A stretch of 64,000 nt of DNA from contig NC_014165.1 of assembly GCF_000092645.1 (NCBI RefSeq), positions 620,001 to 684,000 of the forward strand. The letters run 5' to 3'. Below the pieces are notes generated by a model, which was not told the origin of the DNA, did not search any database, and saw only the letters and a list, made by a program, of their open reading frames with translations. This document shows, in pieces, positions 52,339-56,056 of the stretch. The stretch is from Thermobispora bispora DSM 43833 (GTDB lineage Bacteria > Actinomycetota > Actinomycetes > Streptosporangiales > Streptosporangiaceae). Position 1 is the stretch's first letter, and the number at the start of each line of letters is the position of its first letter. A program made the position numbers and the translations under genes.

Positions 52339-52995
52339 ATGGCGACATCAACGATCGCGCTGGGCATTATGCCTAATGTGACTGAGGCAAACGTCGCTGA
52401 CGCCGTAACCGGGGAAAGGCCTGCGACGAGTTCGGATGAGCCCGACCTCAGGGCACTCATCAGCCGTGCCGCCCAGGGCGATCCCGCCGCCGTCGAATCA
52501 CTGCTGGGACAACTCCGCCCGATGGTGGTGCGTTACTGCCGGGCCCGGCTCAATGGGGTTTCCGGCCATCACCACATCGTCGACGATGTGGCGCAGGAAG
52601 TGTGCATCGCGGTGCTCTCGGCCCTGCCGCGCTACCGCGACATGGGGCGCTCGTTCGCGTCGTTCGTGCTCGGCATCGCCGCGCACAAAGTGGCCGACGC
52701 ACTGCGCAATTCGGTCCGCTCGGCCGTGCCCACCCTGGATTTACCCGATGAGCCGGACGACGGGCCGGGGCCGGAGGAGACCGTGGTACGGCACAGCGAG
52801 GCCCAGCAGGCCAGAGATCTGCTCGCCGCCCTGCCGGACACCCAGCGCGAACTGCTCCTGCTCCGCGTGGTCTCCGGGCTGTCGGCCGAGGAGACCGGGA
52901 ACGTCCTCGGCATGTCGCCCGGCGCCGTCCGGGTGGCCCAGCACCGGGCGCTCGCCCGGCTGCGCCAGCTCGCCGAGCTCGACCGCGTCTCGTAG
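52339..52995 (+). CDS. RNA polymerase sigma-70 family factor (SigD/ShbA-like)
   Basis: 218 aa from ATG 52339 (ATG 52369 is an alternative). Region 2 covers about 55–125 ([60 protein letters not shown]) and region 4 about 155–212 ([23 protein letters not shown]). Position after groEL1 and before guaB matches mycobacterial sigD and Streptomyces shbA. No anti-sigma gene follows, unlike sigD-rsdA, so the ShbA type is likelier. Confidence 0.88.
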
Positions 52996-53196
52996 GAAGC
53001 CGAACACCGCCGCGTCGCCCAGGCCGTCGGGCTCATCGGGCGCCGCATCCGGCCGCATGCGCGCCGCACCCGGCAGTGTCCCGTGGGGCGCCTCGTGGGA
53101 CGCTCGCTGCCCGCGCTCCGGCGCGCTGCATCATGGCCCGCCGGACCGCCGCCTGCCCGGGCGTATCGCCGGGCCGCGGGCGGCCTCGGCGTGCGA

Positions 53197-53583
53197 TCAG
53201 CGGCTCTCCTCGGCGTCGATCACGCCGTCGACGTAGCCGCGGGCGTAGTCCCAGGTCACGTAGTCGGCCGGGTCGGGCTGGAAGGCGGGCTCGTGGACCT
53301 GCGGCCGCCCGTTGTCGATCATCTGCTTGAGATTGCTCCGGAGCAGGTCCCAGTTGAAGTAGTGCTTTTCCCCGCAATCCGGGCAATCGAGTGCGAGACC
53401 GAGCACACCCTGCGGCTCCAGCAGCGAGCGGAAGACTTCGATGTCGGCGAGGTCCTGAAGCGCCTCATCACGCTCGGCGAGCGTCAGCGGCTCGGGCTCG
53501 TCCAGCATGCCGAGCTCGGCCGCAGGGTCGTCAGGGTCGTCCGCGAACGGGTCGCGGGGGAGGTCTTCCAGCACGTCTTCCAC
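53197..53583 (-). CDS. DUF5319 family acidic protein
   Basis: 128 aa, GTG start at 53583. Asp/Glu/Pro-rich N-terminus (DPFADDPDDPAAELG), then LDCPDCGEKHYFNWDLLRSNL with a CxxC and nearby His that may bind metal, and a conserved C-terminal half QMIDNGRPQVHEPAFQP. Equivalent to Rv3412 by position between sigD and guaB. Function unknown. Convergent with the sigma gene. Confidence 0.85.
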   Translation of the reverse strand: MEDVLEDLPRDPFADDPDDPAAELGMLDEPEPLTLAERDEALQDLADIEVFRSLLEPQGVLGLALDCPDCGEKHYFNWDLLRSNLKQMIDNGRPQVHEPAFQPDPADYVTWDYARGYVDGVIDAEESR

Positions 53584-54331
53584 CTTATGCCTACGGCAGG
53601 CCCACCGGGTGAAGGTGCCGTTAACTGCTCCCCGGCGCCGTCGTGATCTATGCCGGCGCCCATGGCCGGGTCCCGGGCCGCGGCCGCGATCACCCCAACG
53701 CGCGACCGGCCGGTGGCGTCATCCTCCCCCGCTCGCCGGTTGGTGCCGGCGGGCCGCTGACCTCACCGCCGGGGCGGAGGCGGTGCCGCGACCGGCCTGG
53801 AGCTCTCCCGGGTCCCGATCCGCCCGGAGGGCCGCCGATGCGGTGCCGGGACGGCGTGCGCCATCAAAGACGCACGCGCGATCAAGGCGCACGCGCGGCC
53901 TCCGGACGGGTCCGCGTGCGCGAGCCCGGCCCGGGCGGCGATCCCGTCCGCCGGCGAGCGGAGGCGCGGCCCGGGAGCCCGAAGGCTTTCGCGACCGGCG
54001 AGGCGGCTGCGGCCACGGCCGGGCATCCGTGAGCCGCCCCTGCCTTCCGCGGCCGGGGCCACCGCCCGGGCCTCCGGGGCCGGGGAGGTGACGGTCACGC
54101 CACCGATCGCGCCGGCGATGACCCCGGCCTTCATGGCGGGAGGTCACCGCGCCGCCGATCGCGTCGATCTCCGGCCAGGGCTTCGTGGCCGAGGAAGCGG
54201 CCAGCGGCCCTCCGTGGCCGGGCAGTGGGGTGACGGCCCCGGAGCGCGAACGGGGTGACGTCCTCCCCGGGCCTTCCGTGGCCGGGGAGGTGACCCTCAC
54301 GGCCGGGAACACGCGTCTTCACGGACGGGTA
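53584..54331. other. Gene-free 750-bp stretch with recurring GGTGAC words
   Basis: No frame here has a ribosome site, domain or the third-position GC bias of neighbours. GGTGAC appears repeatedly (near 54087, 54229, 54255, 54289) and inverted (GGTCACC near 54142), three times within GGCCGGGGAGGTGAC-like surroundings. Could be decayed coding sequence, but I cannot name a parent. Confidence 0.4.
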
Positions 54332-54360
54332 TTGCGTTATGACGTTCCGTGACGCATTCT
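54332..54360 (+). promoter_or_regulatory. Possible promoter of a small RNA
   Basis: TTGCGT (54332–54337) and CATTCT (54355–54360), 17 nt apart, upstream of an orphan terminator. The -10 is imperfect. Confidence 0.3.
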
Positions 54361-54366
54361 TGACTC

Positions 54367-54473
54367 AGCGTTAGCCGACGGTCCGCCATCCGGGCGCGGA
54401 GGGGGGCTCGATGGCGTGGCCGGCATGACGCCGCACTCCGTGGGGGACCGGTTCCCGGTCCCCCACTTTCTTT
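54367..54473 (+). ncRNA. Candidate small non-coding RNA ending in an intrinsic terminator
   Basis: A perfect terminator at 54440–54473 has no plus-strand coding gene within 1.4 kb upstream. Together with the possible promoter at 54332 it defines an RNA of about 107 nt. Inside, CGCCATC and GATGGCG could form a stem and GGCGT/ACGCC another. No known RNA family recognised. It could instead be a leader remnant or insulation for guaB. Confidence 0.35.
54440..54473 (+). terminator. Orphan intrinsic terminator upstream of guaB
   Basis: Perfect 12-bp stem (54440–54451 with 54455–54466), 3-nt loop, then TTTCTTT. Direction is plus: the minus strand has no T run. Confidence 0.85.
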
Positions 54474-54521
54474 CCCGTGCCCCCTTGACAGGTCGGCACA
54501 TTCCACCCCGAAAGCCACCAC

Positions 54522-54527
54522 TAAACT
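54522..54527 (+). promoter_or_regulatory. -10 box of guaB
   Basis: TAAACT 51 nt before the guaB ATG. TTGACA at 54485–54490 is a perfect -35 but lies 31 nt away, too far to pair with it. The promoter assignment is therefore partial. Confidence 0.4.
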
Positions 54528-54574
54528 GGCGTGGGGAGCACACGGGAGCCCGCGAGGGCAGGTAGGGAGGGTAG

Positions 54575-56056
<1,482 letters not shown>

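Follow-up and report, generated by a model that had tools for sequence, protein, structure and literature searches.

Between the genes of a DUF5319 protein and of IMP dehydrogenase (guaB), the DNA of Thermobispora bispora contains what is probably an independent gene for a non-coding small RNA (sRNA) of about 107 nt, which would normally be activated by a divergently transcribed regulator and would act in trans via its apical loop. Such a gene is most likely real and common to many soil bacteria of the Streptosporangiaceae, and it is apparently undescribed. Comparison of the sequences of relatives establishes the predicted element with its structure, its promoter, its terminator and its linkage to the regulator; the locus is well beyond chance because it is conserved in these relatives.

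The locus in Thermobispora bispora

The window, by which we mean the whole stretch of 64,000 nt that was analyzed, is part of a genome that consists of a single contig of 4,189,976 bp. A preliminary description of this DNA had pointed out a perfect 12-bp terminator with a T-rich tail, no plus-strand gene for 1.4 kb upstream of it, and a TTGCGT-N17-CATTCT box about 107 nt before its end. These observations hold: box and terminator are present (Table 1), the RNA from the one to the end of the other would be about 107 nt long, and the first recognizable gene met upstream on the plus strand is a sigma-70-type ORF. Seven ORFs between this gene and guaB were compared with Pfam, which gave no family for the five mechanically called plus-strand ORFs (55–194 aa) from 53083 to 54352, for the 49-aa ORF across the terminator (54416-54565) or for one minus-strand ORF. 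The 750 bp from 53584 to 54330, where the regulator gene sits in relatives, are GC-rich, with imperfect repeats and without a recognized gene. At gathering scores Rfam found nothing at the sRNA locus, its sole match in the window being an L17 ribosomal protein leader elsewhere (RF03132, 24331-24384, plus strand).

Table 1. Features of the sRNA locus and its surroundings (positions in the window)
Feature	Position	Strand	Remarks
Sigma-70-type ORF	52339-52995	+	Pfam; nearest recognizable plus-strand gene upstream of the terminator, ~1.4 kb away
DUF5319 gene	53197-53583	-	PF17252, E 5.1e-51; neighbor
Stretch without recognized gene	53584-54331		Site of the divergent regulator gene and palindrome in most relatives examined; neither found here
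Predicted sRNA promoter	54332-54360	+	-35 TTGCGT 54332-54337, 17-nt spacer, -10 CATTCT 54355-54360
Predicted H1 hairpin	54368-54431	+	MFE fold; 5' GCGTTA pairs with TGACGC 54426-54431
Apical loop GCGGAGGGGG	54396-54405	+	Candidate functional site
H2 intrinsic terminator and T-rich tail	54440-54474	+	Perfect 12-bp stem 54440-54466
Likely -10 (TAAACT) of guaB's own promoter	54522-54527	+	Downstream of the terminator; equivalents in relatives
guaB (IMP dehydrogenase)	54578-56056	+	PF00478 IMPDH, E 1.7e-160; neighbor of the sRNA

Promoter and terminator

In all 71 anchored loci TTGNNN is followed by NANNNT, mostly CANNCT, with a spacer of 17 nt in 63 loci and of 18 nt in the other 8; when anchors are chosen at random in the region, 6.5% have NANNNT at one of these two distances. 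(The counts over 71 loci include L006 and leave out L085, a chance match in genome G320, and L070, which failed the loop filter.) The predicted sRNA promoter (TTGCG-N17-CANNCT) is a weak one, with a good -35 core and a poor -10. The -10 of the three loci without regulator is CATTAT, which is nearer to the consensus, in two of them and CATTCT in the third; we take this as a weak hint. A conserved TTNAC motif (TTGACT at 54360 in Thermobispora) was considered as -35 and rejected because NANNNT follows 16–19 nt on in just 5 of the 66 loci that have the motif, which was not found in 5 others.

The stem of the terminator (H2) is GTGGGGGACCGG-TTC-CCGGTCCCCCAC, i.e., 12 bp with a 3-nt loop, and the tail is TTTCTTTCCC. 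Between 52500 and 57000 no terminator-like site other than H2 was reported on the plus strand; the two strands together have two such sites, compared with 0.6 on average in shuffles. By a strict rule a hairpin with 9 or more pairs was found in 59 of the 71 loci; the next 8 nt contain at least 3 T in 49 of the 59 (15.3% of background positions) and at least 4 T in 37 (4.0%). The rule gave no terminator in the other 12 loci, several of which (L056-L058, L077, L090, L099) have by eye an interrupted hairpin with a T-rich tail. L015 and L053 show by eye a hairpin without a T-rich tail, L008 likewise lacks such a tail, and L051 has nothing convincing as a terminator; in L034 and L044 the strict rule chose a different hairpin, further downstream.

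The loop of H2, GTCACCGA or ATCACCGA, recurs in several genera (L039, L043, L055, L061 and others), a recurrence that is more than a plain terminator needs. Many Nonomuraea-like loci (L015, L035, L061, L071, L082 and others) have between terminator and guaB an extra hairpin with a CGTGGGG motif (flank like CGACGG..CGTGGGGRTCRTCG), which may be a second element.

Structure of the predicted RNA

The predicted sRNA (about 54368-54474, with a start site that would lie at about 54367) is composed of a long hairpin, H1, and the terminator hairpin H2. The fold of 54368-54474 has an energy of -66.3 kcal/mol, compared with -50.7 kcal/mol (sd 3.74) for shuffled sequences (z -4.17; none of 200 as good).

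The predicted hairpin H1 is conserved with covariation. In an alignment of 68 distinct homologues, which was fitted to a model holding part of the same structure and therefore leans towards it, the 18 pairs of H1 are formed in 88.5% of the cells against 17.9–46.5% with slid partners, and double changes are seen in 71 cells, compared with 24.5 for shuffles (none of 500 as high). Two of the five measures used separate H1 from shuffles less clearly: there are 8 doubly changed pairs (6.1 in shuffles, of which 80 in 500 reach the same value) and 29 further pair types (25.0; 8 of 500). In the lower helix the variation is mostly one-sided. A gap-free count of one pair beside the loop (AU in 40, GC in 22 and GU in 5 of 68) yielded the same exchange. 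Comparative folding of the guaB upstream regions of relatives, which the preliminary description had called for, thus finds a covarying H1, and the H2 stems of relatives, at a similar position relative to the loop, have another sequence yet stay complementary.

The apical loop is GCGGAGGGGG in 56 of the 68 distinct sequences, ACGGAGGGGG in 11 and TTGGAGGGGG in one, counted in loci that were pre-selected for GGAGGGGG, with only the two bases before it free to vary.

Distribution among genomes

The comparison started from the guaB upstream regions of relatives, several of which have the same element. A covariance model (R1) made from nine sequences matched 118 of 341 Streptosporangiaceae genomes, in one copy each and in 22 of 68 genera; since R1 included the promoter columns, detection rests partly on the promoter. 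One of the 118, G320 (E 0.0095), is counted as a chance match because the fetched stretch is without guaB, regulator or loop. In a class-wide search of 394 genomes, 16 genomes matched, of which 15 belong to the family and one, a weak match, lies outside it (G430, E 7.8e-4). The filters of these searches were stricter and lose some weak matches. The alignment A4 also comprises 71 loci, a different set with L070 in and L006 out, the latter being without a match at the threshold.

The promoter pattern, when searched in the collection of named genomes, gave 69 stretches in Nonomuraea, Microbispora, Microtetraspora, Planobispora, Planotetraspora, Herbidospora, Streptosporangium, Planomonospora, Spongiactinospora, Acrocarpospora, Thermocatellispora, Thermoactinospora, Sphaerimonospora and [Actinomadura] parvosata, genera which we take to belong to the Streptosporangiaceae.

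The divergent regulator and its palindrome

Orthologues of the regulator (E<=1e-40) were found in 119 of the 341 family genomes, 114 of which also have the sRNA; the regulator is thus present in 114 of the 118 sRNA genomes (Fisher p 1.2e-78, the kinship of the genomes being ignored). It was found in 69 of the 73 fetched loci. In 68 of the 71 loci examined, i.e., in 68 of the 68 that have it, the gene is adjacent to the sRNA on the opposite strand, its start being 125–371 nt (median 149) upstream of the sRNA -35. A profile search of 296 genomes of the class found the regulator in 10, all within the family.

The C-terminus of the regulator is a LuxR-type helix-turn-helix (HTH) (PF00196, 24.9 bits; cut-off 23.5), and the N-terminus scores just below the cut-off for TrmB (PF01978, 24.1 bits; cut-off 25.6). 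With the predicted structure (pLDDT 83.0, pTM 0.61) the best Foldseek match by E-value was TrmBL2 (3.5e-12), the superposition over the whole length being poor (TM 0.29–0.34 by query, rmsd 15–17); there were also matches to the PLD fold (1byr, TM 0.69 by target) and to LuxR-type regulators, VqmA among them. The HKD motif of PLD enzymes was found in none of 30 regulator sequences. The regulator thus appears to be built from a TrmB-like winged helix, a PLD-like domain without the catalytic motif and a LuxR-type HTH.

Exactly 30 nt upstream of the sRNA -35 there is a TGCA...TGCA palindrome in 68 of the 71 loci, and the three loci without it (those of Thermobispora, G034 and G244) are the three without the regulator. 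Among 24 genomes scanned, the pattern TGCANSTTNGTGNANNTGCA was found in exactly one copy in 17 of the 17 with regulator and sRNA. The remaining 7 genomes, of which three have just the sRNA, three lack both and one has a split regulator without a detected sRNA, do not contain it; a mirror control of the pattern had zero matches in all 24. These findings suggest that the regulator binds the palindrome.

Throughout the Thermobispora genome no regulator was found at E<=1e-40, the best local tblastn match having an E of 2.7, and there are zero copies of the palindrome. The preliminary description had considered the sRNA without an adjacent regulator, whose gene, being absent from Thermobispora, was invisible in this DNA.

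Five genomes have the regulator only; in four of these (G025, G354, G355, G081) a divergent sRNA-like element is seen by eye. The position of the locus at the groEL side in G354 and G355 is a local rearrangement. In the fifth, G027 (L012), the regulator is split between frames, the genome is without the palindrome and no sRNA was detected, an apparent joint decay of all three.

Proposed mechanism and targets

We propose that in most relatives with the sRNA the regulator would bind the single palindrome, 30 nt ahead of the -35, and, when bound, activate the weak sRNA promoter, and that the RNA so expressed would act in trans through its G-rich loop, which may pair with C-rich RNA or mimic a Shine-Dalgarno sequence. 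In Thermobispora, where regulator and palindrome are absent, expression of the sRNA would probably be constitutive or controlled in some other way.

We infer activation because the palindrome is upstream of a weak promoter. Its place between two divergent genes would suit either of them, so that the regulator might instead repress a real sRNA, or the palindrome might serve the autoregulation of the regulator only. We regard this as unlikely, though a reading to be taken seriously: the palindrome is always 30 nt from the sRNA -35 (68 of 68 loci), whereas the start of the regulator gene is at a variable distance from it, and the placement upstream of a weak promoter suits an activator.

As to what an activated sRNA would act on, sites complementary to the loop (CCCCCTCCGC) were rarer than those of a mirror-image control in 8 of 8 genomes, i.e., not enriched, and no consistent pairing emerged from duplex tests with start regions (mean z +0.61 for guaB, +0.14 for the regulator and -0.79 for the DUF5319 gene); therefore, no target is supported. 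The unconstrained duplex energies of the sRNA with 6C RNA are -15.0 and -19.1, compared with -13.5 for the 16S tail, values to be read with the caveat that any C-run pairs with any G-run and that the A of the loop is left unexplained. A more far-reaching and distinctly doubtful proposal is that of a new regulator-sRNA circuit, restricted to the Streptosporangiaceae in the searches made, in which a TrmB/PLD/LuxR-type sensor would be dedicated to one operator in each genome and the G-rich, Shine-Dalgarno-like loop would act globally, by occupying the 16S anti-Shine-Dalgarno sequence or by kissing with the C-rich loops of 6C. If this were true, orphaned copies of the sRNA such as that in Thermobispora would be natural loss-of-control experiments.

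The guaB leader and the small reading frame

The preliminary description had left the choice between an independent sRNA and a prematurely terminated guaB leader that controls GMP synthesis. As far as can be judged from sequence, the former is strongly supported by the promoter, the covarying hairpin, the terminator, the single copy and the absence of a conserved ORF. As a leader, the RNA would be the product of transcription that starts at the TTGCGT promoter, usually stops and sometimes reads through (attenuation), and indeed, in all 70 members of the 71-set that have guaB within reach, the sRNA precedes this gene and shares its strand. In 65 of these 70, however, a TAnACT-type -10 is found at most 110 nt from the guaB start, and loci without the sRNA also have a guaB -10 (TAAACT in L007 and L011, TAAAAT in L013, TACACT in L012). 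Between the detected hairpin and guaB there are 88 to 373 nt, depending on the locus, and in G354 (L190) and G355 (L191) regulator and sRNA adjoin not guaB but the end of a groEL-like gene (called by eye from its His-Gly-rich tail). Because guaB has its own -10 and because of these groEL-adjacent pairs, we find no support for a guaB leader that controls GMP synthesis and consider it improbable. A guanine riboswitch or related leader was rejected on three grounds: no known riboswitch model of Rfam matched, the guaB -10 is downstream, and two genomes have no adjacent guaB.

Even less probable is a short mRNA in which GGAGG is the Shine-Dalgarno sequence for a small peptide (MAWPA in Thermobispora). 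About half of the loci have an ATG or GTG at offset 13, and six listed loci (L033, L036-L038, L049, L051) encode MAWP-type peptides. Against this, 22 of the 71 loci have no ATG, GTG or TTG 9–18 nt past the motif, the open frames are anywhere from 1 to 100 or more codons long, and the start-codon columns vary together with their pairing partners instead; the small ORF was rejected because of these start codons and frame lengths, and there is no conserved frame. That the hairpins are a product of chance or a DNA-level element, a terminator-like palindrome without RNA function in a region that is GC-rich and has repeats, is scarcely credible in view of the covariation, the promoter spacing and the single-copy distribution.

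Comparison with known systems

An sRNA whose dedicated regulator can be identified offers a good entry point to gene control in rare actinomycetes, and the genera that have this one include antibiotic producers. The proposed circuit of one operator and one sRNA is small and testable and would be found in roughly one in three of the family genomes that were searched; its conserved loop is open to mutation, and natural strains carry the sRNA without the regulator. What was an orphan terminator has become a candidate gene, and possibly a new Rfam family.

No description of this sRNA was found among the matches listed from the open-access literature. The main text of a survey of Streptomyces ncRNAs (PMC3765725) does not contain guaB, IMP dehydrogenase or inosine, and the main text of a Nonomuraea transcriptome study (PMC5431353) does not mention small RNA or guaB. 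According to PMC9130861, the 6S-like Ms1 is an intergenic sRNA reported in genera of the Streptosporangiaceae and flanked by the genes of a HAD hydrolase and an oxidoreductase, a context unlike that of the new sRNA, which has the regulator or DUF5319 gene on one side and guaB or groEL on the other.

Like 6C, the new sRNA is an actinobacterial sRNA with hairpins that have homopolymeric loops; the loops of 6C are C-rich, whereas that of the new sRNA is G-rich. Thermobispora has its one 6C RNA (RF01066) at a separate locus (G000:C1:255111-255182, above the Rfam cut-off), and RF01066 has no match at the locus described here.

Yfr1 of cyanobacteria is located near guaB and has a CU-rich conserved motif. 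An sRNA paper (PMC2190773) names guaB ten times. The new sRNA differs from Yfr1 in belonging to a different phylum.

The genes vqmA and vqmR are neighbors. In Vibrio cholerae, as described in PMC8284805 and PMC13251380, the LuxR-type VqmA activates the promoter of the sRNA VqmR through a palindrome. Unlike VqmA, the regulator described here is TrmB-like at its N-terminus and PLD-like thereafter, and its palindrome is different; homology to the N-terminal sensory domain of VqmA was not found, TrmBL2 being the best Foldseek match by E-value, and the matches to the VqmA fold, which are short (118–138 columns, TM at most 0.28), are taken as the HTH. The likeness to VqmA-VqmR would be that of a LuxR-type regulator combined with an sRNA and a palindrome, a functional analogy for which homology is not claimed.
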